Shown: in pieces, positions 872 through 36,268 of the stretch
Position numbering within the stretch: position 1 is the first letter of the stretch
How the letters are laid out: every line of letters begins with the position of its first letter
Notes under the pieces: generated by a model
Seen by the model: only the letters and a program-made list of their open reading frames with translations
Told to the model about the DNA's origin: nothing
Databases searched by the model: none
Made by a program: the position numbers and the translations under genes
From: a bacterium
GTDB taxonomy: Bacteria; Pseudomonadota; Alphaproteobacteria; SP197
DNA: 64,000 nucleotides
Assembly (NCBI GenBank): GCA_028821455.1
Contig: JAPPGE010000060.1
Location: 62,001-126,000, forward strand
Direction of reading: 5' to 3'

Positions 872-1945
872 TCAATCCCTGAGAAACCGCACCCACCTGG
901 GGTCAGGCTTGATGCCCACAAGGTCACCGGACCGGGCCACGCCATCCCCGCCAACCTCTCCTTGCACGCGAATCTCGTGAGGTCCGACGTCGACGCGCCA
1001 TATGACATGCGCCCCCAGAAAGCTTCTGTCGGTGACCTTGCCCACGATCCTGGCATCGTCGGGAGGTGTCAGACGGAGGGTTTCGGGTCGCATGCTGATC
1101 CAGCCGTTCCGCACGTCCGCAGGGATATCATCGACGAGCACCGAGACGTCGGTATCCGCTACACGCACGTGGTTTCGGTTCTCGTGATCACCGTCCACGA
1201 TCACCGGGAGGACGTTGGCATTGCCGACGAAGCTGGCCACGAAATAACAGTTCGGAGCGTGATAGACGTCCATCGGCGTCCCGCTTTGCCGGATCATTCC
1301 TTCATGCATGACAGCGATTCGATCGGACATCGCCATCGCTTCCTGCTGGTCGTGAGTCACGTAGAGGAAGGTGACGCCGGTCTCCCTGTGAATGCGCTTC
1401 AGTTCCGCCTGCATCTCCATGCGGACCTGAAGATCGAGAGCCGACAATGGCTCGTCCAGCAACAGGACGCGGGGCTGATTGACGAGCGCTCTGGCAAGGT
1501 TGACGCGTTGCGCCTGGCCGCCACTGAGTTCGTCCGAGCGCCTTCTTTCAAATCCTGCTAGGCGCACGACATCAAGCATGCCGGTCACCGTCTCGTGGAT
1601 CGAGTCTTCGGGCATCCGCCTTGACCGCAATCCGAAGGCGATGTTCTCGAAGACATCCAGGTGAGGCAGGAGCACCGGCTTCTGGAAGACCGTGTTGACA
1701 GGTCGATGGTAGGGAGGAAGCCGGGTGATGTCCTGACCGTCGAGCACCACGGTGCCATGGTCCGGCCAGTCGAACCCGGCGACGATACGAAGGAGTGTGG
1801 TCTTGCCACAACCGCTGGGGCCCAGGAGGGTGACGAACTCTCCCTCCCGGAATTCCAGGCTGACGCCGTCAAGGGCGACAACCTCCGAGAAGCGCTTGCG
1901 GACCTCCGTGACAAGGAGCCGCCCTCCCGAGTCTTGCTGCGTCAT
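872..1945 (-). CDS. ABC transporter ATP-binding protein, PotA-like (importer 1)
   Basis: ATPase of a polyamine/opine-type importer, 357 aa, the usual length. Walker A GPSGCGKTT lies near residue 42, the signature LSGGQ near 140, Walker B VLLLDEPLSALD and the switch H in YVTHDQQEAMAMSDR follow. The C-terminal ~120 residues form a TOBE-like regulatory domain, as in PotA. Its ATG overlaps the stop of the upstream permease by 4 bp (ATGA), so translation is probably coupled. It is the last transport gene of an operon read SBP, permease, permease, ATPase. Family membership is certain; the solute is not. Confidence 0.95.
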   Translation of the reverse strand: MTQQDSGGRLLVTEVRKRFSEVVALDGVSLEFREGEFVTLLGPSGCGKTTLLRIVAGFDWPDHGTVVLDGQDITRLPPYHRPVNTVFQKPVLLPHLDVFENIAFGLRSRRMPEDSIHETVTGMLDVVRLAGFERRRSDELSGGQAQRVNLARALVNQPRVLLLDEPLSALDLQVRMEMQAELKRIHRETGVTFLYVTHDQQEAMAMSDRIAVMHEGMIRQSGTPMDVYHAPNCYFVASFVGNANVLPVIVDGDHENRNHVRVADTDVSVLVDDIPADVRNGWISMRPETLRLTPPDDARIVGKVTDRSFLGAHVIWRVDVGPHEIRVQGEVGGDGVARSGDLVGIKPDPRWVRFLRD

Positions 1946-2778
1946 CCGGCATTCCTCCTGCGGCTACGTCCGGAGGATCTCGCGAAACGGTTGAAACGCG
2001 CGCCGACGAGGCCGAGGGCCCCGACCGCGGCAGTGATGCTGATCACCAGAAGAATCGTGGCCAGCGCGTTGACCGTTGGATCGCTGCCTCTTCTGAACTG
2101 TCCCCACAGCACGATGGGAATCGTACTGTCGGGGCCGATGGTAAACAGTGTGCGAACAAACTCATCCGTCGACAGCGCGAAGGCCAGGACCGCTCCGCCG
2201 ATAAGGATGGGGAAGGTAAGCGGCAGAACGATGTGCCTGAACTGACCCATCGGGGTCAGGCCAAGATCGGCGCCCACCTCCTCGTATTGCGGGTCCAGCC
2301 GGTCCAGTCCGGATCGAGCCACAATCAGAAAGTAGGGAAAGACCCACAGGAAATGGGCAACTGCCACCGTCCCGTGCGACAGGGGAACACCCACGGTATC
2401 GAAATAGGCGAGAAGAGCCAGACCGACGAACAGCGACGGCGTCGCCAGCGGCATGAAGAACAGGATGTTGCCCAGAGCGCCGAGCCTGCGGCTAGCCCGC
2501 CTGAGCCCGAGCGCCGTCATCGTTCCCAGGACCAGCGCAATGACCATGCTGATGGCTGCCAGAACGATCGTGTTCCGGAATGCGTCCATGTAGACGGTGT
2601 TGTTGAACATGCTCCGGTACCAGTGAAGTCCGATGTCCTCGAGCGGCGGTCCGAGCCTCGGTGGCCCCTGGAACGAGAACACGATGACGATCAGAACGGG
2701 TGCGAACAGGAACACGAAGACGACCGTGACAAACAGTCCCGCAAGGATGCGGTTTGCCAATGCCGGCTTTCTTCCCAT
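1942..2778 (-). CDS. ABC transporter permease, PotC-like (importer 1)
   Basis: Inner-membrane permease of 278 aa with about six hydrophobic segments, the first right after the start (ILAGLFVTVVFVFLFAPVLIV). The EAA-type cytoplasmic loop that docks on the ATPase is visible as EEVGADLGLTPMGQFRHIVLPL. It pairs with the PotB-like permease encoded 24 bp upstream. A strong ribosome site (AGGAGGAGG) supports the ATG. The C-terminus is very basic (RSSGRSRRR). Confidence 0.93.
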   Translation of the reverse strand: MGRKPALANRILAGLFVTVVFVFLFAPVLIVIVFSFQGPPRLGPPLEDIGLHWYRSMFNNTVYMDAFRNTIVLAAISMVIALVLGTMTALGLRRASRRLGALGNILFFMPLATPSLFVGLALLAYFDTVGVPLSHGTVAVAHFLWVFPYFLIVARSGLDRLDPQYEEVGADLGLTPMGQFRHIVLPLTFPILIGGAVLAFALSTDEFVRTLFTIGPDSTIPIVLWGQFRRGSDPTVNALATILLVISITAAVGALGLVGARFNRFARSSGRSRRRNAG

Positions 2779-2802
2779 CGCCTCGCCTCCTCCTGTTATC
2801 GC

Positions 2803-3714
2803 CTAGAGACGTACCGAAACCCGATGGAGCCGGGTCGCGAACAAGAGCGATGTCAAGGCGAAGTACAGCAGCGAGAAGACGGCGAGGAGCACGAGTGACA
2901 TCGCGGCTCCCATCGGAAAGTTGCCCGCTTCCGCGAATTGCTGCTGCACGAGAACGCCAACCAGCGTGCCCTTCGTTCCACCAAGAAGCTGAGGCGTCGC
3001 GAAGTCGCTCGCAGCGAGACCAAGGGTGAACATGAAGGGAGCGAGCGAAGTCGAGGCCATCAGTGGGAGAATGACACGCCGCCAGCTCATGAGTCCGGTT
3101 GCTCCCAGATCCTCGGCGACTTCAAGCACCGTACGAGGGAGATTGCGCATTGCCGCGTAGATCGCCAGCGTGACGAAGGGCAGATAGATATGCACGAGGG
3201 CGATGACCACCAGCGTGCGCGTGAAGAGCAGTTGCGGGGGCTCGGTGACTCCCAGTGATTCGATGAAGACGGTGAACACTCCGCTCGAGGTGAACAGTGC
3301 CCGCCACGCATAGATCCTGGCGAGGTAGCTCACAAACAGGGCCACGACCAGCAACACGAACAGCGGCGTCTCGAGACGGCCTGCCCGGAACCTGAGGTAG
3401 AACGCCAGCGGCAGGGCGATCACGAGGCAGATGCCCGCCACGATGAATCCCGTGACGAGTGACCGAATGATCAGCAGTCCGACGAAGGGGTCCGTCAGGA
3501 CGGTCACGAAGTTGTCGAGAGTGAAGTCCCACGTGACCGTAAACAGCCCGCCCCGTGCAAAGGCATAGGCCCCGAAAAGCAGGAGCGGTGCAACGAACGT
3601 CAGCGCAAGGGCAATGACACCGGGTGCGAGGAGAACCCAGGTTCTCCCCGCACCATACTGTCCCCCGGGCAACGAGGGGGTGCCAACTATCCGCCTGCCT
3701 TCAGTTTCGCCCAT
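2803..3714 (-). CDS. ABC transporter permease, PotB-like (importer 1)
   Basis: Permease of 303 aa with a ~25-residue hydrophilic lead and then six predicted membrane segments. The EAA loop reads EVAEDLGATGLMSWRRVILPL. It forms the heterodimeric channel with the adjacent PotC-like permease. Its first ~28 bp overlap the end of the solute-binding protein gene, which fits tight operon packing. A GTG or ATG start slightly downstream cannot be excluded. Confidence 0.93.
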   Translation of the reverse strand: MGETEGRRIVGTPSLPGGQYGAGRTWVLLAPGVIALALTFVAPLLLFGAYAFARGGLFTVTWDFTLDNFVTVLTDPFVGLLIIRSLVTGFIVAGICLVIALPLAFYLRFRAGRLETPLFVLLVVALFVSYLARIYAWRALFTSSGVFTVFIESLGVTEPPQLLFTRTLVVIALVHIYLPFVTLAIYAAMRNLPRTVLEVAEDLGATGLMSWRRVILPLMASTSLAPFMFTLGLAASDFATPQLLGGTKGTLVGVLVQQQFAEAGNFPMGAAMSLVLLAVFSLLYFALTSLLFATRLHRVSVRL

Positions 3715-4844
3715 TCACTCAACCATTCCAGATAGCCCACAACCTCGTCGGTTGTTTCGTCCGGCGGCCATGGGGTCAGAGGGCTGCGCGCCAGTGCATT
3801 GTCAAGATCGCCGTAGTCGTAAAGACTGGCGGACTTCTCATCCATCAACGGCACGGCGTCCATGTTGACGACCGCCACCTGGATGTTGGAGCCGATCGCC
3901 GCCTGGACTTCGGGCTCAAGCACCTTGTTGATGAATGCCAGAGCGGTTGCCTTGTTGTCGGAGATCTCCGGAATTGCGAAGGCCTCGACCCAGCCGATTC
4001 CGCCTTCCTTCGGTTCGACGTTCGCTGCATTGGCCCCACGATCGTTGGCCCATGCCGAGACGGGCTCCCAACCGTTGTAGGTGCACCAGATGTCACCGGA
4101 CGCCATCAGTTCGGCCACATCTCCGAACGACATACCGACCGCGGGCACCTGATCACGCATCTTGCGCATGAAATTCATGACTTCGTTGAATTCCTGCCGA
4201 TTGTAGAGCGGCGTGCTCTCAATTCCGAGCGTCCGGCCCGCGATCACCATGCCGCCATCGGGGCCACCGCCCCAGCCGACATGGCCCCTGTATTCATCCT
4301 TCAGGAGATCGAACCATGATTGCGGCGGATCGATGCGTTCCGGCAGGTAGTTCGTCACGGAACGGCCCCATGTGAACGGGACAAGAATCCAGTCGCCGTT
4401 CTCATTCTTGAAAAACCGTTCGTCGGCAAAGGTCGGATTGATCTTGTGCGAGAGCGGGACGTCGTCCGGACTGATGGGAACCACCAGATCTTCTAGCCTG
4501 CGTGCGAGGCCATTGAAAGTTCCGATCAGATCCCAGGTGACACCTCCAGGACGCCGGAGCTTGGCAATGACGTCGGCATTGGCCGAAATGTACGACGAAC
4601 GCATCGTGACCCCGGCCTCTTCCATCCACGCGTCCATGGGCTCGAGGCCCAGCATGTCGTAACCCTCGTACCAGAAATAGTCGATGTCACCACCAATGGC
4701 TCCGTCTGAGAGGCTGGCCGAAGCGAGCGACGGGACAACACTCAATCCGACGGCTGCCTGGGCCGATGCGTGAAGGAGACGGCGGCGGGAAATGGGTGAA
4801 CCGAACGATGAAACTGTCCTGATGATACCTTTGTCATCTGACAT
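3687..4844 (-). CDS. Periplasmic solute-binding protein, PotD-like (importer 1)
   Basis: The ORF track starts at 4952, but the ATG at 4844 has a good ribosome site (AGGGAGG) and removes 36 unlikely residues, leaving 385 aa. The N-terminus carries a twin-arginine-type signal (SRRRLLHASAQAAVGLS...ALA-like end SLASA), suggesting Tat export. The mature part has the fold pattern of spermidine/putrescine-type binding proteins (WYEGYDMLGLEPMDAW near the N-terminus; TWGRSVTNYLPERI mid-protein). It captures the solute for the two permeases downstream. It is the first gene of the operon and is divergent from a TetR regulator. The ligand cannot be read from sequence. Confidence 0.92.
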   Translation of the reverse strand: MSDDKGIIRTVSSFGSPISRRRLLHASAQAAVGLSVVPSLASASLSDGAIGGDIDYFWYEGYDMLGLEPMDAWMEEAGVTMRSSYISANADVIAKLRRPGGVTWDLIGTFNGLARRLEDLVVPISPDDVPLSHKINPTFADERFFKNENGDWILVPFTWGRSVTNYLPERIDPPQSWFDLLKDEYRGHVGWGGGPDGGMVIAGRTLGIESTPLYNRQEFNEVMNFMRKMRDQVPAVGMSFGDVAELMASGDIWCTYNGWEPVSAWANDRGANAANVEPKEGGIGWVEAFAIPEISDNKATALAFINKVLEPEVQAAIGSNIQVAVVNMDAVPLMDEKSASLYDYGDLDNALARSPLTPWPPDETTDEVVGYLEWLSEWAKLKAGG

Positions 4845-4914
4845 GGCGATCCTCCCTGTTGTGTTGTGTCGGGAGAAAACGACCAAGCCGCGACCCGACA
4901 CGCGAGTGCAAAAT

Positions 4915-4928
4915 AATATGGTGATATT
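4915..4928. promoter_or_regulatory. Short palindrome overlapping the importer 1 promoter (candidate TetR operator)
   Basis: AATAT-GGTG-ATATT is a perfect 5-bp inverted repeat and overlaps the predicted -10 box. It sits between the importer operon and a divergent TetR-family gene, the usual place for the operator of such a repressor. The arms are short and AT-rich, so chance occurrence is possible. Confidence 0.35.
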
Positions 4929-4952
4929 GTCTCCCTGTCGATATGTTGTCAA
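4924..4952 (-). promoter_or_regulatory. Predicted sigma70-type promoter for importer 1 operon
   Basis: On the minus strand TTGACA (4952-4947) is followed after exactly 17 nt by CAATAT (4929-4924). The -35 is a perfect consensus match. It lies 80 bp upstream of the solute-binding protein ATG, in the gap shared with the divergent TetR gene. Confidence 0.55.
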
Positions 4953-5014
4953 TCAAGCAGGCCAGTCCCGCTCCATTCGAAGCGGGAAGACGGTGTGCCG
5001 ATCGGGGGAGAGAC

Positions 5015-5671
5015 GTGTTGCCAACATCAGCGCAACGGGAGGGCGAATGGGACGATGGCCCCGGGCCCTCGGGCGCTCTGGCAAGGCAGCGCCGCTGGGC
5101 AATACTGAAAGCGGCAAGCCAGGTCATCAGCAGACGAGGTGTCCACCACACGCGACTCGTCGACATCGCGGACGAAGCCCGCGTGTCTGTCGGAATGATC
5201 CAGCACTATTTTCGGAGCCGCAACAATCTTGTCCGCGAGACCTTTCAATGGAAACTCGAGGAATCCCTTGCCTCCTACGGAACCGGTCTGCAGGACGACA
5301 GCACGGCCTGGCAACATGTCGAGAGCCTGTGCCGCATGCTGACAAGGGAACCCTTCGCGGCCATCAATTCCCTGTGGCTCGAGTTTTTCTCCCTGTGCAA
5401 CAGGGACCCGGAATTCGCCGCTCTGGGTTCGGAACTCTGGGAGCGCTGGTCAGAGCAGGTCCGGGCGGTCGTCGAAAAGGGCATCGATGACGGAGAATTC
5501 ACGACCGGTTCTTCGCCTGACGACGTGGCGGCCCGCTTCGTGTCCCTGGCTGACGGTCTTGGCATTCGCGTCCTCATCCACCACAAGGGCATGTCGATTG
5601 AACGGATGCATCAACTCCTTCTCGAAGGAGCCGCAAGGGAACTCGGCATAGCGCTGGAGCGGGCACCGTAG
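5015..5671 (+). CDS. TetR-family transcriptional regulator
   Basis: The N-terminal helix-turn-helix is clear: AILKAASQVISRRGVHHTRL, then VDIADEARVSVGMIQHYF, the classic recognition-helix pattern of TetR/BetI regulators. The rest is an all-helical ligand-binding domain ending near residue 218. The ORF track start (4943) lies inside the -35 box of the divergent promoter; GTG at 5015 (or TTG at 5018) has the strong ribosome site GGGGGAGAG and gives the normal ~218 aa. It is divergent from importer 1 and probably controls it, responding to the imported solute. The ligand is unknown. Confidence 0.88.
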   Translation: MLPTSAQREGEWDDGPGPSGALARQRRWAILKAASQVISRRGVHHTRLVDIADEARVSVGMIQHYFRSRNNLVRETFQWKLEESLASYGTGLQDDSTAWQHVESLCRMLTREPFAAINSLWLEFFSLCNRDPEFAALGSELWERWSEQVRAVVEKGIDDGEFTTGSSPDDVAARFVSLADGLGIRVLIHHKGMSIERMHQLLLEGAARELGIALERAP

Positions 5672-5778
5672 CCCGCCGGGGATTGCTGCGAGGCGCGGAG
5701 CCCAGCGTCGTGCGGCAAGGCCACATCCTTGTTGATCCGGTGAGCCCCGGGTGTCGAGTCGATTGGCGGGCGGGACGA

Positions 5779-8031
5779 TTACCCGCCGGGTTCGGCGCGG
5801 GGCAACGCGGGTGCCGGTATCACAAAGGGCTCCGGGTCGCGGAAGCGGTCGAGGACGTTGCCGAGGAGGCGGGCGACCGGATTGTCGTAGCCATTGACCG
5901 GCAGGGCCGAGCCGAAGGCGATGGACCCGGCGGAGAACACGGCCCCGCCTCCCGGGTGCTCGAAGAAGGTCATGTCGGCCCGCACCAGGGGATGGTCGTC
6001 GGCAATCACCGGCTGGTTGGAGGTGAGTTCCTCGAGCACCACCAGCATGCCGGCGGCATGCTCTTGCGAGCGGGCAACGACCAGGGCATGGGGCGGCGTG
6101 CCGAGCCGGGGGTCGGCGCGGTCGATCTCGAGACCGGCGGCGCCACCACCGACAAGTCCGGCATCACCGATGATCTCGTCGTCGATGCCGGCGAAGATGA
6201 AGCCGGCACGCGGATCATCGGCGGCCGGGGTGCGCCGGTACCAGGTAGAACGATCGAAGCCCTGGGCCGTGAAACCGATGCCGGCAAGCTGCTGCGGCGG
6301 ACGCCCGCTACGCCGCCACAGGCCACCATACTCTCCGGTGAGACTCATGAAGGATTCGCCGGCCCGCGACACCCAGGACCGGGTGCCACCCTCGGTTTTT
6401 CGGCACTCCAGGACCCCTGGAAGATCCTGCCGCAGCGCGATGCGCCAGTAGAACCCGTTGGCACCGGTGTAGATCAGCCGCCCGCCGCGGGCGAGCCAGG
6501 CCTCCAGGGCATCGAGCATGGCTGCAGTGTGGTACTCGGGGTGGCTGCCGGTGACGACAACGGAATAGCCTTCAAGCACGCCCAGCCCTTCGCCATCGAG
6601 CTCCTCGTCGGTGACGACGTCGAAGCCATCGCAGGCCTGGTCCAGCCAGGACGTGATGTGGGTATCGGCAACGAGGCCCCACACGCGCCCCTTCGGCCGG
6701 AAGTTGAGGATCGGTCGCAGGCGCGATGAGAGACTGACGCCACTGCCGTCGGAATGGGTGTCGTAGGTCGAAAGCCCGTACTCCGAATGGGCCTGCAGGA
6801 AACAGTCGTCGCGCGTCATGACGGTGGCGCGGAACTGCTTCATCTCGACGGTGTCGTTGCGGAAATGCCGGCCTGAATTGGCATAGGCCATGTAGGTGGC
6901 CGTGGGCATGAGGAAACAGACGTCCGATGTCCTCCGGCCGCGGGGCGGCACGACGGCGAAGGGAATGAAGTCCTCGGCGTCCCCGGCCGTGACATGAAGC
7001 GCGTGGATGGCGCTCGGCGTGCCTTCGGGCACCTGCCAGACGTGACTTGCCGGCCACCCGGCATCATGGACGTCGTCATCGTGAAAGTGGATCGCGGCGT
7101 AGTCTTCGGGCCGGTGGCGCCAGGACATCTCGCGACCGCTCCAGGCAGCACCGGTCACGGCGCGTTCGGGAAGGTGAACGAGTGTGCCGTGGTGGCCATG
7201 TCCGGACACGTCCTCGATGGTGAGCGTGCCGATGCCGCGCGAGAAGTCCCAGGCGGCCAGGATGGCATCACGGATCGCCGGTGCGGCCGGACGAGCCCCG
7301 GCGATGATGACCTCGTCGGTTGTGAAGGCGCGGCACGCTACCCGCGGCGCCTCGATCCGGCCGTTGAGGCAGCCGGCATGGTAGCCACGGCCGTCCCCGG
7401 CATCACGATGCCAGGCGGCCATCAGCCAGCGGGTCGTCCGCAGCACTGGCGAGAATGGAATTGCGACCTGGCGAAGCACAAGGCGGCCGGTGTCGAGCGC
7501 CTGCTGGAGAAGGCACAGCGTGCCCAATTCCGGATCAAGGGAGGCGGCAACGCGATACCAGGCGCCCGCCACCATGGCCTCACCCGTTGTGGCAGCGACG
7601 CTGGCGTGTCCGTTCCCGGCCACCAGGCCCGCGGCGCCGTCGTCGCCGACAACGAGGCTGGCGCCGGTGTGGTCACTCTCGGACCAGGTGCCGATGACGC
7701 CCTGGCGTCCCTTCTCCGGCGTGGTCGGCATGACCAGTGCCTGGAGCGTGAAGGCACGCGCAGGGACGAGGTGTGACGAGGCCGGAACGACGGCGTGCGA
7801 ACCGGCATGGATGACGTGGGCCCTGCCCTGGTGGAGGCCGCTCACCGGCGTCTCGACCGGGACGCTCCTGAACGGTGCGCCGACGGGATTGTCGTCCGCC
7901 GAGTGGAGACGGACGATGCCGGCGCGGTAGGTGGCGGGACCGTCGCAGCTCACATGGAAGCTGATACTCTCCCCGGGCCTCACCGACATCCTGTCCGCAT
8001 AGCCGTTGAGTGGCCGTAATCCTGGTTCCAT
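5779..8031 (-). CDS. N,N-dimethylformamidase large-subunit-like amidohydrolase (copy 1)
   Basis: This 750-aa protein matches the large (beta) subunit of N,N-dimethylformamidase in length and architecture: an N-terminal beta-sandwich/LamG-like part (FTLQALVMP, TLCLLQQALDTGRLVLRQ) and a C-terminal catalytic part. From memory, Paracoccus DMFase binds one iron through two Tyr and one Glu (about 399, 440, 521). Equivalent candidates here are Tyr383 (TYMAYAN), Tyr423 (LSTYDTHSDGSG) and Glu499 (TGSHPEY), with nearly the same spacing. No small-subunit gene is adjacent. The ATG has ribosome site GGGAGG. It is divergent from an aldehyde dehydrogenase across 77 bp. A paralogue lies at 25-27.5 kb. The family is confident; the amide substrate is not known. 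Confidence 0.85.
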   Translation of the reverse strand: MEPGLRPLNGYADRMSVRPGESISFHVSCDGPATYRAGIVRLHSADDNPVGAPFRSVPVETPVSGLHQGRAHVIHAGSHAVVPASSHLVPARAFTLQALVMPTTPEKGRQGVIGTWSESDHTGASLVVGDDGAAGLVAGNGHASVAATTGEAMVAGAWYRVAASLDPELGTLCLLQQALDTGRLVLRQVAIPFSPVLRTTRWLMAAWHRDAGDGRGYHAGCLNGRIEAPRVACRAFTTDEVIIAGARPAAPAIRDAILAAWDFSRGIGTLTIEDVSGHGHHGTLVHLPERAVTGAAWSGREMSWRHRPEDYAAIHFHDDDVHDAGWPASHVWQVPEGTPSAIHALHVTAGDAEDFIPFAVVPPRGRRTSDVCFLMPTATYMAYANSGRHFRNDTVEMKQFRATVMTRDDCFLQAHSEYGLSTYDTHSDGSGVSLSSRLRPILNFRPKGRVWGLVADTHITSWLDQACDGFDVVTDEELDGEGLGVLEGYSVVVTGSHPEYHTAAMLDALEAWLARGGRLIYTGANGFYWRIALRQDLPGVLECRKTEGGTRSWVSRAGESFMSLTGEYGGLWRRSGRPPQQLAGIGFTAQGFDRSTWYRRTPAADDPRAGFIFAGIDDEIIGDAGLVGGGAAGLEIDRADPRLGTPPHALVVARSQEHAAGMLVVLEELTSNQPVIADDHPLVRADMTFFEHPGGGAVFSAGSIAFGSALPVNGYDNPVARLLGNVLDRFRDPEPFVIPAPALPRAEPGG

Positions 8032-8108
8032 GCCACCTCCCTGGGGGACTTGAGGGGTCGGGGATGATTCCTACAATGGCACCGGAGCAGACCATGGGGA
8101 AAGAGATC

Positions 8109-9617
8109 ATGACGGTGACAGATACGTTCAGGGACCTGTCGGGCCAGGTGTACATGGATGGCCGCCTGCGCCGCAGCGAGTCGAGCGATGGGTTCGATGC
8201 CATCGACCCGGCAACCGAAGCGGTCAATGGCGAACTGGCCTTCGCCACGGTTCACGAGGTCGACGAGGCCGTCGCCATCGCCCGGCGCGCCCAGAAACAG
8301 TGGGACCGCATGAACGGCCTCAAGCGATCCGAGGAACTCCACGAGGTGGCGCGCCGGCTGCGGAAGAGCACGCCGCAACTCGCCGAGGCCCTGACCCGGG
8401 AAATGGGCAAGCCGTACAAGGAATCGGCGGATGAAGTGGAGTGGACCGCGACCGCCTTCGACTACTATGCGGAAGTCTCGCGCCACGAGGCAGGTCGCGT
8501 CGTCGGTCCGGTGGTCGACGGGGACTTTCATGTCGTCACCAAGTCGCCCCTGGGCGTGGTCGGCATCATCCTTCCCTTCAATTTCCCCTATGTGCTGTTC
8601 GGCTGGGAAGCCGGCGCCGCACTCGGCGCCGGCAATGCGGTCATCCTCAAGCCATCGGAACTGACGAGCTTTTCCTCGCTCATGATGATGGAGTGTTTCG
8701 ACCACCTGCCGACCGGTCTTGTGCAGTGCCTCACCGGGGCCGTCGAGACGGGCAAGGCCCTGGTCGGTCATGACGAGGTCGACGGGGTGGCCTTTACCGG
8801 GTCGATTCCCGCCGGACAGGCCGTCGCCCAGACCTGTGCCTCCTCCTTCAAGCGCTGTCTCATAGAAGCAAGCGGCAACGACCCCTTCCTGGTGATGCCG
8901 TCGGCCGACATGTCCATGGCCACCCAGGGCGCGGTGTTCGGCGCCTATCTCAATTGCGGACAGGTGTGCGCCGCCGCCGAGCGCTTCTATGTCCACGATT
9001 CCGTGCACGACCGCTTCGTCGACGAGGTCACGCGTCTGACGCGTCAGCTGCGCATTGGCAACGGTCTCGACAAGGTGGACATGGGACCGATGGCCGCCCA
9101 GCGCGAGCGTGACCGCTACGAAGGCATGCTCGCACGGGCCATCGACGAAGGTGCGACCGTGGTCACCGGTGGCGGCCGCCCGGAGGGTTTCAACCGCGGC
9201 TACTACTGCGATGCGACCATTCTCACCGAGTGCACGCCGGACATGGAGATCATGAACAACGAGAGCTTCGGCCCGGTGATGCCCATCTGTCGGGTCGGCA
9301 GTTTCGACGAGGCTCTCGAACACGCCAACAACTCGCGCTACGGGCTTGGCTCCTTCGTCTTCACCAACGATCTCTGCGAAACCATGCGGTCCATCAACGA
9401 GATCGAGGCGGGCATGACGTGGATCAACGCCACGGCCCTTCTCGACAACGATGCCGGACCCTTTGGCGGGCGCAAGATGTCGGGAACCGGCCGCCAGTTA
9501 GGCAGCGAGGGGATCGACCAGTTCCGCCACACCAAGCTCACCATGATCGATCACGAGAACAAGCCCGCGGACTTCTGGTGGTTCCCGTACAAGGACGAGG
9601 AGGCCTATCCCGGCTGA
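8109..9617 (+). CDS. NAD(P)-dependent aldehyde dehydrogenase
   Basis: Aldehyde dehydrogenase superfamily, 502 aa from the chosen ATG. Motifs in order: LPFNFPY (cofactor/oxyanion region), FTGSIPAGQAVAQ (Rossmann loop), catalytic Glu in EASGNDPFLVM and nucleophile Cys in NCGQVCAAAERFYV, then ESFGPVMPI. The ORF track start at 8010 would overlap the divergent DMFase gene; the ATG at 8109 has GGGGAAAGAG upstream and a family-like N-terminus. It oxidises an aldehyde to the acid in the cytoplasm. Context with the DMFase homologue suggests an aldehyde released from an amide or amine, but this is inference. Nothing follows for 186 bp. Confidence 0.93.
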   Translation: MTVTDTFRDLSGQVYMDGRLRRSESSDGFDAIDPATEAVNGELAFATVHEVDEAVAIARRAQKQWDRMNGLKRSEELHEVARRLRKSTPQLAEALTREMGKPYKESADEVEWTATAFDYYAEVSRHEAGRVVGPVVDGDFHVVTKSPLGVVGIILPFNFPYVLFGWEAGAALGAGNAVILKPSELTSFSSLMMMECFDHLPTGLVQCLTGAVETGKALVGHDEVDGVAFTGSIPAGQAVAQTCASSFKRCLIEASGNDPFLVMPSADMSMATQGAVFGAYLNCGQVCAAAERFYVHDSVHDRFVDEVTRLTRQLRIGNGLDKVDMGPMAAQRERDRYEGMLARAIDEGATVVTGGGRPEGFNRGYYCDATILTECTPDMEIMNNESFGPVMPICRVGSFDEALEHANNSRYGLGSFVFTNDLCETMRSINEIEAGMTWINATALLDNDAGPFGGRKMSGTGRQLGSEGIDQFRHTKLTMIDHENKPADFWWFPYKDEEAYPG

Positions 9618-9803: not shown

Positions 9804-10076
9804 TCACCCAATGGCGGCGATTGCTTTTGCCGCGAAATGGCATGCAATCCATCGACGATGCGCCACGAACTCCCGCACCGTCAGTCCGACATCGCGCGCG
9901 ATGCAGCGCAGCAGGACCGGGGACGCGTCACGCCCACCATGCACAGGCACCGTCGTCATCCGTCCGTCCGGGTGGCGAAAGCGCTTGTGAGAATCGCGCT
10001 GGCGAATCTCCATGAATTCGAGTTTCGCGAGTACGGCCATGACCTCTCGCGGCTTGAGGACGGGAACGGAAGGCAC
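9804..10076 (-). CDS. hicA: HicA-family mRNA interferase toxin
   Basis: 90 aa with the double-stranded-RNA-binding-like HicA fold: KPREVMAVLAKLEF at the start, the catalytic His in the segment RQRDSHKRFRHPDGR, then TVPVHGG and the C-terminal LLRCIARDVGLTVREF helix. HicA toxins cleave mRNA. The start of the gene is 6 bp after the stop of the HicB-like antitoxin. The C-terminal ~15 residues (CHFAAKAIAAIG) extend past the usual end. Confidence 0.85.
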   Translation of the reverse strand: MPSVPVLKPREVMAVLAKLEFMEIRQRDSHKRFRHPDGRMTTVPVHGGRDASPVLLRCIARDVGLTVREFVAHRRWIACHFAAKAIAAIG

Positions 10077-10082
10077 CCGTCT

Positions 10083-10292
10083 TCAAGACACCATGACGAT
10101 CTGCGTGCCAACGAATTCGCCCACCATCGGGGGAACCCCCTCCTCAAGGATCATGGCGATGACTTCCTTGAGATTGTCGTTGAGTTCCTCAAGGGACTCA
10201 CCCTGGCTGTGCGCTCCGGGGAAACCCGGAACGTAACCGACATAGAGGCCCGTGTCCGGACAACGTTCGACAACGGCGGTGTAGCTCTGCAC
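10083..10292 (-). CDS. hicB: HicB-family antitoxin
   Basis: The ORF track calls 138 aa from 10499, but homology to HicB covers only the last 69 residues, starting at an in-frame GTG (VQSYTAVVERC). The protein shows the HicB partial RNase H-like fold: DTGLYVGYVPGFPGAHSQGES then LEELNDNLKEVIAMILEEG. It binds and neutralises HicA and usually autoregulates. Gene order is hicB then hicA. No clear ribosome site precedes the GTG, so a longer product is not ruled out. Confidence 0.82.
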   Translation of the reverse strand: MQSYTAVVERCPDTGLYVGYVPGFPGAHSQGESLEELNDNLKEVIAMILEEGVPPMVGEFVGTQIVMVS

Positions 10293-10563
10293 TGCTGGAG
10301 GCCCGGTCAAGAAGTGCGAGACGCCATTCCAGCGGAGTTCGAACCCGATGACAGCATCCCTGTTTTCGGCACCCTTGCCGGGGAGGGGGGCCTCCTGTGC
10401 GGCGCCAGCTTTGTGGTGTCGGTAGAATTCTGACGGACCCGCACACAGCATCTCTCTCCAGACATGGATATGGGACGGTTGTATCCACCCACATGCCACC
10501 AGTCCGTTTGCTGACCGGCAGCTTCCGTTCGCCTGGCACTCGAAGGCTGAGCATCACATGAAT

Positions 10564-11721: not shown

Positions 11722-11833
11722 GGTTGCTCCCGGGCGACACCGCCGTCATCTTGCGATTCTCTGCCGCAGCGGTCTACAAGGTGAGTGGCGCCCCGGGGCG
11801 CGTCTCCTTCTCCCAGGGAAAGGTTGGCCCACC

Positions 11834-24198: not shown

Positions 24199-25275
24199 CT
24201 ATATGACGACGAGGTGTTCGGACAGCCAGCTGAGCCAGCAAGGTTGACCCGTTTCAAGAGGATCACATCCCGCTTCGCTGTTCATGCGCGCCACGACGAC
24301 CGGATCGCCCTGCGCAAGGCGGCAGGCGAAGTAGGTGATCGGTCCGACATACGACACCTCTTCGATCTTGGCCTCGTGCCCGTTGTGTTCGGGTTCTGAG
24401 GCCAAAATCGAGATCATTTCGGGACGAATGACGGCGTTGATGCGGTCTCCCGATGACCGGGCGACCGGTGAATAGCCTCCCAGCTTCAACCCGCTCCGGG
24501 TCTCGATCTCCACCTTGTAATCGCGGCACGACGTCACGGTTGCCTCGAAACGCGTGGTCCGGCCAACAAAATCCGCAACAAAAGAACTCTCGGGGTGCTC
24601 ATACACCTCGCGCGGCTGGCCCATCTGAACAATGACCCCTTCCGACATCACGGCGATCCGGTCGGAGAGGATCAAGGCTTCCTCCTGGTCGTGGGTGACG
24701 AAGACTGCCGTGATCGAGAGTTTCTGTTGCAGGGCCCTGAGGTCGCGCTGCATGCGCTCGCGCAGCTTTCGGTCGAGGGCCGAGAGCGGTTCGTCCAGAA
24801 GCAGGATCGCGGGCTCGTAGACCAGGGCCCGCGCGAGCGCGACGCGCTGCTGCTGACCACCTGACAGCTGGCGGGGATACCGGTCAACCAGGTCGCCGAG
24901 GTCGACCAGATCGAGCACCCGTTCGACTCGTTCTTCAATTTCGCGCGTCGGGGCACCGCGGCACTCCAAGCCGAAGCCGACATTGCGTTCAACCGTCATG
25001 TGGGGCCACAGGCTGTAGCTCTGAAACACCATGCCCAGATTGCGTTTTTCGGTAGGCACGTCGTTCATGACCGAGCCACCGATCGTGATCGTGCCCCGAT
25101 CGGGATCGACGAAGCCTGCCATGACCCTCAGGAGTGTCGTCTTGCCACAGCCGCTTGGACCCAGAAGCGAGACCATTTCGCCTTCGTGGACGGTCAGCGA
25201 CAGGTCGTCGAGCGCCGTCACCTCACCGAAGCGCTTTGTGATGGAGTGCGCGACGAGTAGCTCGGTCATGGTCAT
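24199..25275 (-). CDS. ABC transporter ATP-binding protein, PotA-like (importer 2)
   Basis: 358 aa with Walker A GPSGCGKTT, Q-loop FQSYSLWPHMTVERNV, signature LSGGQQQR, Walker B ILLLDEPLSALD and FVTHDQEEALILSDR, then a TOBE-like C-terminal domain. Its ATG overlaps the stop of the DMFase-like gene by 4 bp, showing both are one translational unit. It energises the two permeases encoded further upstream in the operon. An alternative start is the second Met (MTELL). Confidence 0.94.
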   Translation of the reverse strand: MTMTELLVAHSITKRFGEVTALDDLSLTVHEGEMVSLLGPSGCGKTTLLRVMAGFVDPDRGTITIGGSVMNDVPTEKRNLGMVFQSYSLWPHMTVERNVGFGLECRGAPTREIEERVERVLDLVDLGDLVDRYPRQLSGGQQQRVALARALVYEPAILLLDEPLSALDRKLRERMQRDLRALQQKLSITAVFVTHDQEEALILSDRIAVMSEGVIVQMGQPREVYEHPESSFVADFVGRTTRFEATVTSCRDYKVEIETRSGLKLGGYSPVARSSGDRINAVIRPEMISILASEPEHNGHEAKIEEVSYVGPITYFACRLAQGDPVVVARMNSEAGCDPLETGQPCWLSWLSEHLVVI

Positions 25276-27527
25276 TCTTCCTCGTCCGGCATCTCGAAGG
25301 GGGCAGGATCAAGAAAGCGCTGGAGAACGTTGGCGGTCAGTCGCGAGACGTTGTTCCGGTAGTCGTTGTGGCACAGTGATCCGCACCAAGCGATCGAACC
25401 CGTCGAAAAGACCGCGCCGCCATTCGGTGTCTCGTAGAACACCAAGTCGGAGCGCACCATCGGATTGGCCGGATCGTCGGTCGTGGGATCGCTCACGCCG
25501 TGAAGATCGGTCGACGAGCGGGTGTAGGTCAGGGTGTGACCTTCCGACGACGCCAGGCACAGGGCGTGCGGCGGGGTGCCGAGGCCGTGATCGAACCGGT
25601 CGATCTCCCAGCCCGCGGCGCCGCCACCCTGGAGCCCGAAATCCCCGATCAGCTCGTTTTCGCCGATCCCCTCGAAGATGAAGGCGGCACGGGAGTCGAA
25701 GCTTGCCGCTTGCCGGCGGTAGTAGGATGAAAAATCAAAGCCCTGCGACACGAAGCCGTTGCCAGCAAGGAGATTGGGAGGGCGTCCAAGGCGGACCCAG
25801 TGTCCCCCGGCTTCTCCGTTGAAGGAGAGATGATACTCGCCCACGCCGTGATCCCAGGACCGCAGCCCGTCCTCGCCACGACGCATTTCCATCATGCCGG
25901 GCATGTCTGGATGGAAGGCGACACGCCAGAAAAAGCCGTTGCCACCCATGTACATCAGGCGCCCGCCGCGTTGCTGGTAGGCGTAGATCGCATCCCACAT
26001 CGCCGTCGAGAGGTATTCGGGGTGGCTGCCGGTGATAACGCACGCGTAGTCTGAGAGGAGGCCCACGCCTTCGTCGTGCAGGTCCTCGTCGGTCGCGACG
26101 TCGAACGCGAAGCCGCTCTCCTCAAGCCAGTCCACGAGGTGGAGATCGGCACTGTAACACTCCAGCCACGTGTGTTTCGGGCGGAAGTTGAGCACCGGAC
26201 GCAGCCTTGAGGTGTAACAGACCGGCGAGCCGTCGTTGTGCAGGTCGTAGGTCGAGTGTCCGATTTCGGGGTGGTCGATCATGTAATGTTCTTCGGCGCA
26301 CATGCGCGCGATGTGGTTCAGCAGCATCTCCGCGCCCTGGCTTTCGAAGTTGAAACGCCAGTTGGCATAGGCGAGATAGCTCGCTGTCGGGACCAGGAAG
26401 AGCAGTCGGGCCGTCGTCGTGTTGCGCGGCGGGCGCACGAAGAACGGCAGATAGTCTTCGGCGTCGCCTGAGACGAGCTTGGCCGCGTACCATCCGCTAG
26501 CGAGGTCATCCGGCACGGTGAACGAGAAGTCGCCATCCCATTCGCAGTCGCCGACAGCATCGTCGTTGAAATGGATGGCGGCGTACTGCTCAGGCGCAAA
26601 ACGCCAGTCCATGACGTCGCCCTCCCAGTTGTGGCCGCGCATCGCGCGCATGGGAAGGTTGACTGCCGTGCCGTGCAGGCGGTTTGGAGAAAGGTCGACG
26701 ACATCGTTCGAATTGATCGCGCGCGCGAAGTCCCAAAGCCCGACCACGGTATCGAGCAGGTGTCCCGGCACGTCGCCCGACCGCAGGGCTTCCATGTCGC
26801 TCCTCTCAAGCACGCGGTTGGCGATCGCCGGCCGCTCGATCCGTCCGTTGAAACCGCCGGTCGGCACGAAACCGGCGGCATCGTCGCAACGGCATGAAGC
26901 GCCGAACAGAAGTGGGGTCGCCGCGGTGGCCACCGGCGAGACGCGCATCGCCGCCTCGGCGAACTGGGTCTGGTCGCGGTAGCCATAGTTCTTCAGAAGT
27001 TCCTGGCGCAGCACGAGCCTGCCGTCTCGTGCGCTGAGCGTTGCCGACACGAAGTACCAGTGTCGCTGACGCAGGGGGGAGGGGATCGTCAGGCACTGGC
27101 ACTCTCCCGTTCCGTCACCCACCACCAGGGCAAGCCGTCCCTCGTCGTCGATGAACAGCCCGAATCCCGCCTCGCGTGCCTTGTCGTAGCGCGTGATGAG
27201 GCCCTGCCAGGGAATGTCGGTCAGTGTAGCGAAGACCATGGCCTGGACGGTGAAATCTTTCAGACCGTCGAGCACGGCCTCGTCCGGAACGCGCACATGG
27301 GATCCCGGGTGGATTGCTTGGAACCGCGCGTCATAGGTCCCCGTGACCGGTGTCTCGATCGGCCATTCCTTCATGCCCGGTGCTCCCGGCTGCGTGTCGC
27401 CGCAGATCACGCGCACGATCTCGGCGTGATATCGCTCCAGCGTCGGATCGCAACTCACCATGAAGTTGATCTCATCGCCGGGCTCCACGCTGATCTCGTC
27501 GCTGTAGCCAATAATCTTCTTGCTCAT
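25272..27527 (-). CDS. N,N-dimethylformamidase large-subunit-like amidohydrolase (copy 2)
   Basis: The ORF track gives 897 aa from 27965, which runs into the permease gene; the ATG at 27527 (MSKKIIGYSDEISVEPGD) leaves 751 aa, matching copy 1 and the family. The putative iron ligands are kept: Tyr387 (SYLAYAN), Tyr427 (HSTYDLHNDGSP) and Glu504 (TGSHPEY), and the N-terminal beta-sandwich is present. The gene is lodged between permease and ATPase genes of importer 2, with 20 bp and -4 bp spacing. This ties the enzyme to the imported solute: an amide that is probably hydrolysed after uptake (inference). No signal peptide is visible, so it is cytoplasmic. No small subunit is encoded nearby. Confidence 0.87.
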   Translation of the reverse strand: MSKKIIGYSDEISVEPGDEINFMVSCDPTLERYHAEIVRVICGDTQPGAPGMKEWPIETPVTGTYDARFQAIHPGSHVRVPDEAVLDGLKDFTVQAMVFATLTDIPWQGLITRYDKAREAGFGLFIDDEGRLALVVGDGTGECQCLTIPSPLRQRHWYFVSATLSARDGRLVLRQELLKNYGYRDQTQFAEAAMRVSPVATAATPLLFGASCRCDDAAGFVPTGGFNGRIERPAIANRVLERSDMEALRSGDVPGHLLDTVVGLWDFARAINSNDVVDLSPNRLHGTAVNLPMRAMRGHNWEGDVMDWRFAPEQYAAIHFNDDAVGDCEWDGDFSFTVPDDLASGWYAAKLVSGDAEDYLPFFVRPPRNTTTARLLFLVPTASYLAYANWRFNFESQGAEMLLNHIARMCAEEHYMIDHPEIGHSTYDLHNDGSPVCYTSRLRPVLNFRPKHTWLECYSADLHLVDWLEESGFAFDVATDEDLHDEGVGLLSDYACVITGSHPEYLSTAMWDAIYAYQQRGGRLMYMGGNGFFWRVAFHPDMPGMMEMRRGEDGLRSWDHGVGEYHLSFNGEAGGHWVRLGRPPNLLAGNGFVSQGFDFSSYYRRQAASFDSRAAFIFEGIGENELIGDFGLQGGGAAGWEIDRFDHGLGTPPHALCLASSEGHTLTYTRSSTDLHGVSDPTTDDPANPMVRSDLVFYETPNGGAVFSTGSIAWCGSLCHNDYRNNVSRLTANVLQRFLDPAPFEMPDEEE

Positions 27528-27547
27528 GTCTCGTTCTCCCGCCCGGT

Positions 27548-28357
27548 TCAGCGTCGCAAACCGAGGATTCGGTCCAGCCCGATCTGACGATCGACGACGA
27601 TGATGGCCAACAAGGCCAACAGGCTCATGATGGTCGAGATGGCGGCAATCGTTGGGTCCGGTCGGAACCGCATGTAGGTCAGAATTCGCACCGGCAGCGT
27701 CACCACATCGTGCCTTGACATGAAGAGCGAGACGACCGGCTCGTCGAAGGATATCAGGAACGCGAACATCAGGCTGGCAAGGATGCCCGGGATCAGGAGG
27801 GGCACCACAATGCGGCGCAGAACGCGTCCGTGGCCCGCGCCTGCGATGACCGCGGCCTCTTCCATGGCAGGGTCGAGATCGTCGTAGCTGGTAAAGCAGA
27901 TCTGGACGGCGAAGGGCAGCGACAGCACGAGGTGCGCACCGGCAATCACCAGCAGCGTGAGCCACATGGACTGGGTCACCCCCAGGCTTCCAGACAACAG
28001 CAGAAGCGCGGGGCCGTAGACGATTGTCGGCAAGATGATGGGAAAGAGCGCCAGCCCGGCCACAAACTGACGGGCGCGCCGGCGGACACGGCGCAGGCCC
28101 GTTGCCGCGACCACCGCGAGCCCCGTCGATACCAGGGCCGCGAAGGCGGCAAGCAACACGCTGATGACAAAGGACTCGGTAAACTCGTCCCGGGCAAGGA
28201 AGTTACCGTACCATTCGAGGCTGAAGCCCGAAGGCGGAAAACTCAGCATGGCTGTAGGCGAAACCGAAGCCAGTGCAACGACAAGGGTTGGCAGGAGCAG
28301 ATACAGGCTGATCACCGCGATGACGGCGAGATAGAACAGGCGTGCCAGGCGTCTCAT
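27548..28357 (-). CDS. ABC transporter permease, PotC-like (importer 2)
   Basis: 269 aa, about six membrane segments starting with LFYLAVIAVISLYLLLPTLVV. The EAA loop is AMEEAAVIAGAGHGRVLRRIVVPL. It is 6 bp downstream of the partner permease gene and 20 bp upstream of the DMFase-like gene. The family moves polyamine- or opine-type solutes across the inner membrane. Confidence 0.92.
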   Translation of the reverse strand: MRRLARLFYLAVIAVISLYLLLPTLVVALASVSPTAMLSFPPSGFSLEWYGNFLARDEFTESFVISVLLAAFAALVSTGLAVVAATGLRRVRRRARQFVAGLALFPIILPTIVYGPALLLLSGSLGVTQSMWLTLLVIAGAHLVLSLPFAVQICFTSYDDLDPAMEEAAVIAGAGHGRVLRRIVVPLLIPGILASLMFAFLISFDEPVVSLFMSRHDVVTLPVRILTYMRFRPDPTIAAISTIMSLLALLAIIVVDRQIGLDRILGLRR

Positions 28358-28363
28358 CGCGGC

Positions 28364-29212
28364 CTACGAGGCGCGGTGGCGCATCACGCGCCGCGAGATG
28401 ATTGCCAGACTCACGAGCATGGCAATCGCCAGAAGCAGCAACGTTGCGGAGACGGCCGCTGCGAAGGGATAGTTGAGCGAGCGTGTCATCAGTTGGCGGA
28501 TTAGCGTGCCCAGAACCATCACGCGGCCGCCCCCAAGGAACTCGGGCGTGATGAAGCTGCTCATCGACAGTGTGAAGACAAGAATGGACCCGCTGATGAC
28601 GCCCGGCAGACTCAGCGGCCAGATGATGCGGGTGAAGATGCGTACCTTGCCGGCGCCGGCGATCGAGGCCGCGTCCTCGAGCACCCTGTCGATGGCCTGC
28701 AGGCTTACCGCGAGAACGATAATCTGGATGGGCAGCATGATCTGGACGAGTCCGACAATGACCCCGGTCTCGTTGAACATCAGCCTCAAAGGCTTTTCGA
28801 TCAGTCCAGCATCCAGGAGCATGTTGTTGAAGAGGCCCCGCGGCGTCAGGAAGACGAGCCATCCATAGGTTCTGACGACCAGGTTGGTGAACAGCGAGGC
28901 GACGGTCACGATCATCACTGCGCGACGCACAAAGCCCGTCTCCCGCGCAATGAACATGGCCAGGGGATAGCCAAGCACCAGGCACAGGACGGTGACGTAG
29001 GCGCTGATCCTCAGCGTGTCGGTAAGCACGCCGAGGGCATAGTCGTCACGAACGAGCCGAGCGTAGTTTTCCAGCGTGAACGTATCGTCGAAGATTCCGG
29101 GTTCGAGATAGAGCGCGACGCTGACGCTCAGGAAGAACCCGACCGGCATGACGAAGAACACGACAAAGATCGAACCGAGAAGGATAACGTAACCTGTCTT
29201 GACGCTCGGCAC
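28364..29212 (-). CDS. ABC transporter permease, PotB-like (importer 2)
   Basis: 282 aa with a GTG start (VPSVKTGYVILLGSIFVVFFVMP), six membrane segments and the EAA loop VLEDAASIAGAGKVRIFTRIIWPL. The ribosome site before the GTG is weak. It pairs with the PotC-like permease just downstream. Confidence 0.91.
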   Translation of the reverse strand: MPSVKTGYVILLGSIFVVFFVMPVGFFLSVSVALYLEPGIFDDTFTLENYARLVRDDYALGVLTDTLRISAYVTVLCLVLGYPLAMFIARETGFVRRAVMIVTVASLFTNLVVRTYGWLVFLTPRGLFNNMLLDAGLIEKPLRLMFNETGVIVGLVQIMLPIQIIVLAVSLQAIDRVLEDAASIAGAGKVRIFTRIIWPLSLPGVISGSILVFTLSMSSFITPEFLGGGRVMVLGTLIRQLMTRSLNYPFAAAVSATLLLLAIAMLVSLAIISRRVMRHRAS

Positions 29213-29255
29213 GTCCGGACTCGCTTTCGGAAGACGCGTCCGATGTCGACCGGGT

Positions 29256-30359
29256 TCAGCCCATGCCGACGATCGGAATGATCTCCTGGTTCCACCTCTG
29301 GATCAGCTCGTCGCGCCTCTTGTTGATGGCGTCCCAGTCCGGCCGAACCAGGGCGTTCATCTCCTCATCACCGAACGGCATCCACGGAACGAGTTCTTCG
29401 CTCAGGGAAACCCCGCTCACGGACGGCGCCGACGCGTACTCTTCGGCGAAGATGTTCTGGGCCGACGGCGCAAGTGCATGGTGAATGAACCGTTGCGCCA
29501 GCGACGCGTTGCGCGCGTTGGCGGGAATCGCGAGCATGTTGGGAACCGCCACCATGCCTTCCTTCGGCTTGGCGAGGCGAATGGTCTCCTGTCCTGCCAG
29601 GTACATGACGTAGGCTTCGCCGTGGTACATGGGCGAGAAGGCAATTTCGCCGCGTTCGAAGATCTGCCGCACGTCGTAGTCCGACGCCATCAGCGCGGCC
29701 TGTGGTGCCACCTCGACCATGGCGGCCCAGCCTGCATCGAAATCGTTCTCGTCCCCGGTGCGCAGTTTCGCAAAGGCGGACACGACGTAGAGCGCCCAGC
29801 TGTCAATTTCCGGCACGGCGTACATTCCGGCGTTGGCGGGGTCGGCGAAGGCTCCCCACGAATCGACCGACTCAATCTGCGCACTATCGTAGACGATGCT
29901 GATGCCGCCGAAGCTCGCGGCAACGGCCTGGCCGTTTCCGTAGATGGACGTGCCGTAAGCGTTCGCGAGATTGGGTATGTCGTCCGCCGACAGCGGCATG
30001 AACATGTTCCGCGCAAAGCCGGGAAGCGCGACATCAAGATCGATGTAGAGAACGTCGAACGGTGGTGCGTCCCGGTTGGCCAGAAGCTTGGCGAACTGGT
30101 CGGTGCTGCTGCCTGGGAGGATGCTGACATCGGCGCCTGTTTCAGCAACGAGCGGATCGATGACGGCACGCTGAACGGTATCGTCCCATACTCCGCCCCA
30201 GGAACCGACAACGAGCTCGCCTTCGGCCCGGGCGGGCATCGAGGACACCCAGGGCGCCACAGCGGCGCCGGCGAGTGCGCCCAAGGTCGAACGCCGGGTC
30301 AGCGCATGGAACATTCCTGATCCCTTGGTTGTCCTGATTGGTTTCCTGAACGCTGACAT
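29256..30359 (-). CDS. Periplasmic solute-binding protein, PotD-like (importer 2)
   Basis: The ATG at 30359 follows a perfect GAGGAGG, so the first 84 residues of the ORF track entry are not translated; the product is 367 aa. The signal peptide has a twin-arginine-like start (LTRRSTLGALAGAAVAPWVS) and a cleavage-like PARA. The mature start ELVVGSWGGVWDDTVQ is typical of the group that includes opine/spermidine-type binding proteins. It heads the importer 2 operon containing the DMFase-like enzyme, so its ligand is presumably that enzyme's amide substrate or a relative. Confidence 0.92.
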   Translation of the reverse strand: MSAFRKPIRTTKGSGMFHALTRRSTLGALAGAAVAPWVSSMPARAEGELVVGSWGGVWDDTVQRAVIDPLVAETGADVSILPGSSTDQFAKLLANRDAPPFDVLYIDLDVALPGFARNMFMPLSADDIPNLANAYGTSIYGNGQAVAASFGGISIVYDSAQIESVDSWGAFADPANAGMYAVPEIDSWALYVVSAFAKLRTGDENDFDAGWAAMVEVAPQAALMASDYDVRQIFERGEIAFSPMYHGEAYVMYLAGQETIRLAKPKEGMVAVPNMLAIPANARNASLAQRFIHHALAPSAQNIFAEEYASAPSVSGVSLSEELVPWMPFGDEEMNALVRPDWDAINKRRDELIQRWNQEIIPIVGMG

Positions 30360-30686
30360 GACGAAATCCTCCTCGAGTTGGTGTTGGAGACTGCGAAGGG
30401 GCTCCAGCTTCTTGGGCACCCGCACGGCCGTCAGGCTCAAACATGTTCGTGTCAATGGCAAGTGTACGTAATCGATTGACGACGGCAAAGCACCGGCGGT
30501 CCTGTGGTGACGAACTTCAGGGCTCAGCCGGTCGCACTGCTTCCGTTCAACAGTATGCTGGTCGCAGCGACAGGGACGACTGAATCGACGGAGCGTGGCC
30601 GTTGGCGTCAAGTGTGCCCGGACTACCTGGTGTGCTGACGACCAAGAGCACCGATTCCCGTCACGAGGCCAGTCCGCACGGCAAAC
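30360..30686. other. Upstream region of importer 2, no gene seen
   Basis: This stretch should hold the promoter of the importer 2 operon. I see no convincing paired -35/-10, no palindrome of note and no coding frame that resembles a protein. Confidence 0.4.
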
Positions 30687-36258: not shown

Positions 36259-36268
36259 GGACCAAGCC

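Follow-up and report, generated by a model that had tools for sequence, protein, structure and literature searches.

A DMFase large-subunit homologue encoded without a small subunit is predicted to be a single-chain Fe(III) amidohydrolase

Introduction

Can a homologue of the N,N-dimethylformamidase (DMFase) large subunit that is encoded without a small subunit work as an enzyme by itself, and on which amides? The large subunit of the Paracoccus enzyme (parDMFase) is inactive alone and needs its small subunit (PMC7686228). Its iron is coordinated by Y399, Y440 and E521, which are spaced by 41 and 81 residues, and H519 was shown by mutation to be essential (PMC7686228). This site of two tyrosines and one glutamate was called unique when the DMFase structure was described in 2020 (PMC7686228).

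The question is raised by a 64,000-nt stretch of contig JAPPGE010000060.1 (assembly GCA_028821455.1, positions 62,001 to 126,000), hereafter the window, which encodes two intact DMFase-like proteins, W1 and W2. An earlier note on this DNA recognized them as DMFase homologues with conserved iron-site residues and proposed that both may be single-chain enzymes acting on other amides, given that neither has an adjacent small-subunit gene. Here, we computed for W1 its homology, ligand identity, fold, small-subunit absence, residue signature and conserved gene partners. The gene at the center of this study is the following.

5779..8031, minus strand: W1, DMFase-large-subunit-like amidohydrolase of 750 aa from the branch predicted to be small-subunit-independent

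Results

W1 belongs to the DMFase large-subunit superfamily

The W1 reading frame is complete, with an ATG start and a good Shine-Dalgarno sequence (AGGGAGGTGGC). Residues 290-717 match PF20254 (DMFA2_C) with an E-value of 4.7e-84 and 283 bits (cut-off 27), and a weak Laminin_G_3 (concanavalin/laminin-G) match precedes this domain at the place where DMFase has its pentraxin domain. In the PDB, the top sequence match of W1 is N-acetyl-(R)-beta-phenylalanine acylase (8huy, 8i59 and 8i5a; 491 bits), and the Paracoccus DMFase large subunit (6lvb) scores 471 bits. The comparison with the DMFase structure that the earlier note had called for yielded a confident AlphaFold2 model (mean pLDDT 92.1, pTM 0.92), whose whole chain superposes on 6lvb with a TM score of 0.93 and an rmsd of 2.4, and which superposes on the 8huy acylase with a TM score of 0.85. 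In the superposition on 6lvb, the Ig-like, pentraxin and ThuA-like domains of the model are arranged as in DMFase. Thus, the domain match, the PDB sequence matches and the model superposition bear out the assignment of W1 as a DMFase homologue, and W1 is a member of the DMFase large-subunit superfamily (PF20254).

One W1 orthologue (93% identity) deviates at its end. In the sister genome G004 (locus L146, around 5431-8393), it stops at about residue 692-703, and ~3 kb of additional DNA lies between it and the TetR gene, as if an insertion had occurred at the end of the gene.

The iron-site residues are conserved

The parDMFase numbering was transferred to W1 by way of pAMI2 DmfA2, which is collinear with 6lvb and therefore allows the residues to be carried over. 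The codons concerned, including those of the signature residues described below, are as follows.

6883..6885, minus strand: Tyr383, predicted iron ligand corresponding to parDMFase Y399 (alignment; PMC7686228)
6868..6870, minus strand: Arg388, signature residue together with H501 and T502, with a proposed substrate carboxylate contact (alignment)
6763..6765, minus strand: Tyr423, predicted iron ligand corresponding to parDMFase Y440 (alignment; PMC7686228)
6535..6543, minus strand: His497-Pro498-Glu499, putative catalytic His (H519 in parDMFase) and predicted Glu ligand (E521) (alignment; PMC7686228)
6526..6531, minus strand: His501-Thr502, signature residues beside the Glu ligand in the HPEYHT motif (alignment)

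The candidate ligands of W1 (Y383, Y423 and E499) are spaced by 40 and 76 residues, and those of W2 (Y387, Y427 and E504) by 40 and 77. The alignment thus upholds the earlier claim that both copies keep the Tyr, Tyr and Glu residues at spacings of 40 and 76-77, and the spacings of 41 and 81 given there for the Paracoccus enzyme agree with its published ligands (PMC7686228). Both tyrosines, the catalytic His and the Glu are invariant in all 49 relatives compared, and W1 N525, which aligns with parDMFase N547, is nearly invariant among relatives. The conservation of the iron site in W1 is real, and Fe(III) binding itself is predicted.

Small-subunit genes occur in the genome beside other paralogues

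Where are the small subunits in this genome? A first profile built from four DmfA1-like proteins gave a best match of only E 1 across the window and none near W1 or W2. A 70-sequence profile, for which true matches fell below 1e-6 and noise above 2 with nothing between, had no match up to E 10 across the window. Both profiles therefore confirm that neither W1 nor W2 has an adjacent small-subunit gene. Elsewhere in the genome, the four-protein profile identified seven clear small-subunit genes, all on other contigs and each immediately preceding a large-subunit gene, and an eighth profile match (E 0.06) was unconvincing. The genome-wide search for a small subunit of ~130 aa that had been suggested earlier thus finds seven, all beside other paralogues. 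With this arrangement, a partner supplied in trans is possible for W2 and only unlikely for W1.

About ten large subunits are encoded in the genome, of which nine are intact and one seems to be divided between the ends of contigs C45 and C12. W1, W2 and the second member of a tandem pair on C45 have no small subunit of their own. W1 orthologues were present in 12 of 14 genomes of the bacterial family, and none of the 12 has a small-subunit gene nearby. The identification of the small subunits is confirmed by a fold model, whose best match is to the DMFase small subunits (TM 0.76). Against the PDB, the small-subunit profile significantly matched only DMFase entries and not the acylase entries (8huy). 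A weak resemblance to ribosomal protein S15 (sequence E 0.04) was considered and rejected, as the fold matches below E 0.001 were only DMFase small subunits.

W1 probably lies on the single-chain side of the family tree

We collected 80 loci from public genomes, sorted them by small-subunit presence and built a tree together with the acylase. Small-subunit presence is strongly clustered on this tree, requiring 7 changes versus 26 in shuffles, and no shuffle out of 500 needed so few. W1, three relatives (68-71% identity) and a 15-member acylase clade form one side of the tree (SH-aLRT 89), and an adjacent small subunit is found in 0 of these 19 members. A more careful 44-row tree recovered the acylase clade with support of 100/100 and separated W1 plus the acylase clade from the two-chain group with 89/86. 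W1 branches off between these two groups as a lineage flanked by long stems, and because support for the acylase side is only 89/86, it may instead be sister to the two-chain group.

Using a 31-sequence small-subunit profile, we searched 14 genomes that contain an acylase-clade enzyme (G153 and 13 others) and found no small subunit anywhere in any of them, whereas two control genomes that also have two-chain enzymes (G008 and G125) yielded two and one, respectively. Because all 14 genomes lack a small subunit, the acylase branch functions without it. For W1 itself, whose own genome contains small subunits, the argument comes from its clade, its signature and the 12 of 12 orthologues that lack a local copy. 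That W1 is a small-subunit-independent, single-chain protein is thus a well-supported prediction.

The absence of an adjacent small-subunit gene does not by itself indicate a single chain, because some operons pair one small subunit with two or three large subunits. The proposal that both copies are single-chain enzymes on other amides therefore holds up for W1, through its orthologues, its clade and the 14 genomes. It finds no support in W2, whose place in the tree is inside the two-chain group (100/99). A treatment of W1 and W2 as one class is ruled out by the tree.

An Arg plus His-Thr signature marks the single-chain branch

Arg occupies the alignment position of parDMFase I404, which lies five residues past the first Tyr ligand, in all 19 single-chain members (R388 in W1). 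It occurs there in 0 of 66 large subunits that have a small-subunit neighbor and in 0 of 12 other solitary copies, among them W2 (Phe). The single-chain branch also carries His-Thr at parDMFase columns 523-524, just past the Glu ligand (HPEYHT). In sequences outside the set that gave the signature, Arg, His and Thr occur together in six new single-chain members and in the W1 orthologues, versus 0 of 39 sequences with an adjacent small subunit, all 39 of which lack the Arg, although these do not amount to 39 independent tests because some are near-copies from one bacterial family. Of 105 large subunits that adjoin a small-subunit gene, none has the combination. Arg404 alone was rejected as a marker: a copy on contig C65 of genome G013 has the Arg without His523 and Thr524, and a small subunit lies 1.2 kb upstream of it. 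At the F693 column of parDMFase, W1 has Ser (S671).

Genomic neighborhood of W1

The genes beside W1 in the window are as follows.

872..4952, minus strand: PotABCD-type ABC transporter (polyamine-like binding protein, two permeases and ATPase)
4943..5671, plus strand: TetR-family regulator with a BetI-type C-terminal domain, convergent with W1
8094..9617, plus strand: aldehyde dehydrogenase of the aminoaldehyde/betaine-aldehyde type, divergent from W1, start at 8094 or 8109

As described previously, W1 is divergent from the aldehyde dehydrogenase gene, and the two starts lie about 62-77 bp apart. This aldehyde dehydrogenase neighbors W1 orthologues throughout the bacterial family. In about nine genomes, it diverges from a conserved cluster in the order M19, W1, FrhB, M81, SDR and acyl-CoA ligase. 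In family relatives, the M19 dipeptidase gene directly precedes the W1 orthologue, usually with an overlap of a few bases and otherwise touching it, and the downstream genes, which are variably complete, encode an FrhB-like protein, an M81 peptidase, an SDR, an unknown protein, an alpha/beta hydrolase and an ADP-forming acyl-CoA ligase. The sub-lineage of the window (four genomes) retains the aldehyde dehydrogenase beside W1, and in the genome of the window the M19 gene (77% identity) and the M81 gene (76%) are located away from W1, on contigs C54 and C3, respectively.

In the window, the W1 and aldehyde dehydrogenase pair is near the TetR regulator, an acetate kinase gene, a gene for sulfoacetaldehyde acetyltransferase (Xsc; 928 bits against TIGR03457) and an agmatinase-family gene, the last adjoining Xsc together with acetate kinase. 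The Xsc and acetate kinase arrangement near W1 is common to the closest sister genomes. At 10564-13603, Xsc is paired with acetate kinase and not with phosphotransacetylase, with which taurine pathways usually pair it. A HicB-like/UPF0150 antitoxin gene with a small 90-aa ORF downstream, possibly a HicAB pair, occupies 9804-10499 on the minus strand.

W2 is a member of the two-chain lineage

W2 lies within a transporter operon.

24199..30419, minus strand: transporter operon around W2
24199-25275, minus strand: ATPase of this operon
25272..27527, minus strand: W2, second intact copy of 751 aa from the two-chain lineage, with conserved iron-site residues
27548-28357 and 28364-29212, minus strand: permeases of this operon
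29256-30419, minus strand: binding protein of this operon

In the 44-row tree, W2 groups with two-chain members from Chloroflexota (100/99). Its sole close orthologue (91% identity) also lacks a small subunit, and its next relatives (54%) form part of a tandem array that is preceded by a small-subunit gene. Given that W2 is nested in the two-chain lineage, its solitude is probably secondary, and its small-subunit partner was probably lost, displaced or shared. Beside the W2 transporter operon, two adjacent DAO-GcvT fusions followed by an MTTB-family (trimethylamine methyltransferase-like) gene occupy 31307-37852, a region that looks like methylated-amine catabolism. The stretch at 17489-17833 is probably a gene remnant; it shares 68% identity with the N-terminal end of the dimethylglycine/sarcosine-dehydrogenase-like gene located at 31307-33811.

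PF20254 is expanded in the bacterial family

In 14 of 15 sampled relatives from the family of the window, PF20254 is present in 4-12 copies (mostly 8-12), compared with 0-2 copies per genome in other families of the same class and a strong match in only 11 of 399 genomes (about 3%) of a phylum-wide sample. Several family members have operons in which two or three large-subunit genes accompany a single small-subunit gene. Such operons are found on contig C10 of G006 (L150, 7358-14319), contig C1 of G008 (L152, 6632-11540), contig C45 of the genome of the window (L016, 7861-12630) and at L061; their gene content suggests mixed complexes or a shared small subunit.

Some copies have altered sites. 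The second tandem copy on Aminobacter plasmid pMDW2 (L215, 4902-7223) has Ala at the Glu ligand and no recognizable HPE motif, and a copy on contig C47 of G013 (L194, 2787-4991) has Gln at the position of the essential His; both are possibly non-catalytic partners. Two distant PF20254 proteins in the genome of the window (C52, 13376-14734, and C76, 18569-19867; open frames of 546 and 725 aa) lack the start of the domain model, are not retrieved by a sequence search with W1 and could serve as an outgroup to root the family.

Discussion

What does W1 do? We consider it reasonably likely (probability of about 0.65) that W1 is a soluble homo-oligomeric Fe(III) amidohydrolase that needs no small subunit, cleaves an N-acyl amino acid or short peptide and shares a catabolic pathway with the aldehyde dehydrogenase and the M19 and M81 peptidases. 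We infer its metal occupancy, activity, substrate class, the role of R388 and the pathway order as follows. Y383, Y423 and E499 would hold one Fe(III), H497 and N525 would belong to its second shell, and the metal would be the site of C-N amide bond hydrolysis. The homo-oligomer would be active without a small subunit, by analogy with N-acetyl-(R)-beta-phenylalanine acylase. The probable substrate class, an N-acylated amino acid or short peptide, is suggested by one named PDB enzyme and one residue. The N-acyl amino acid substrate of this solved enzyme makes an Arg that binds the carboxylate a reasonable expectation, and we propose that R388 grips it. The products would pass to the aldehyde dehydrogenase, and the wider pathway may include the M19 dipeptidase, M81 peptidase, SDR and ADP-forming acyl-CoA ligase.

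Single-chain acylases of the DMFase fold are already known from the PDB. N-acetyl-(R)-beta-phenylalanine acylase (8HUY, 8I59 and 8I5A) shares with W1 full-length homology, the fold, the iron-site residues, the Arg at the 404 column and the His-Thr past the Glu ligand, and its entries, judged by sequence, contain no small-subunit chain. W1 is nevertheless a separate lineage, with 38-39% identity to the acylase in structural alignment. Four single-chain enzymes, some of which branch close to the acylase, adjoin a class III aminotransferase gene, which fits beta-amino acid release there. W1 lacks this neighbor and has M19, M81 and aldehyde dehydrogenase partners, unlike the acylase relatives. A bolder extension, which we hold only tentatively and consider somewhat unlikely as a whole, is that W1 represents a third, hitherto undescribed lineage between the acylase and DMFase types, with the translationally coupled M19 dipeptidase as its partner in an undescribed catabolic route for N-acylated dipeptide-like compounds. 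The alphaproteobacterial family would then have made out of a rare gene a toolkit of mostly 8-12 enzymes, in part of which several catalytic subunits share one small subunit.

Could W1 instead be a two-chain enzyme? The Paracoccus large subunit is inactive alone (PMC7686228), the genome of the window has seven small-subunit genes from which W1 might borrow, and operons with one small and several large subunits suggest that sharing is tolerated. However, every W1 orthologue lacks a local small subunit, and the Arg plus His-Thr signature belongs to enzymes from genomes without any small subunit. Borrowing from another operon is thus unlikely for W1. The two-chain enzymes of the same genome (e.g., on contigs C7, C29, C45 and C56) are about 43-46% identical to W1 and share the iron site, but they have a DmfA1-like gene directly upstream and lack the signature. 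W1 also resembles Paracoccus DmfA2 (6LVB; pAMI2) in its three-domain architecture, fold, Y/Y/E ligands and catalytic His and Asn, and its fold and ligands are identical in kind to those of a DMFase proper, which would act on dimethylformamide or another small formamide. Yet W1 lacks two features of N,N-dimethylformamidase (alpha2beta2, EC 3.5.1.56), a small subunit encoded beside the large one and the F693 with which the neighboring large subunit closes the pocket: its loop at F693 is shorter, with Ser in that column, and I404 is replaced by Arg. Its neighborhood also differs, with peptidases, aldehyde dehydrogenase and acyl-CoA ligase as partners and without the LuxR-type regulator or AmiS/UreI genes found beside DMFase and DMFase-like loci. 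A role as a DMFase proper is therefore scarcely credible.

The neighborhood and the wider superfamily raise two further readings. The Xsc, acetate kinase and agmatinase-family genes close to W1, also present in the closest sisters, would suit an enzyme that cleaves an N-acyl conjugate such as N-acetyltaurine and so frees taurine or another aminosulfonate, but W1 and the aldehyde dehydrogenase are paired in family genomes without Xsc nearby. The Xsc neighborhood is thus recent and may be incidental, and we regard the taurine role as highly unlikely. It is distinctly unlikely, too, that W1 has kept the fold without being an amidase, or that it cleaves an ester or another bond. The superfamily is mostly uncharacterized, and paralogues with a changed catalytic His (Gln in L194) or Glu ligand (the second L215 copy) show where such a reading could apply; against it, W1 keeps the ligands and the His that are essential in parDMFase by mutation, and both solved relatives cleave amides.

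Thus, for the reading of W1 as a single-chain amidohydrolase, what is new is the sorting of one-chain and two-chain lineages, the residue signature, the partner genes and an expansion confined to one bacterial family. The annotation "N,N-dimethylformamidase" of such genes does not equate to degradation of dimethylformamide. The signature predicts the chain type, and R388 is a candidate substrate determinant that lends itself to testing. What the small subunit is for, and which natural amides are cleaved, become directly testable questions.
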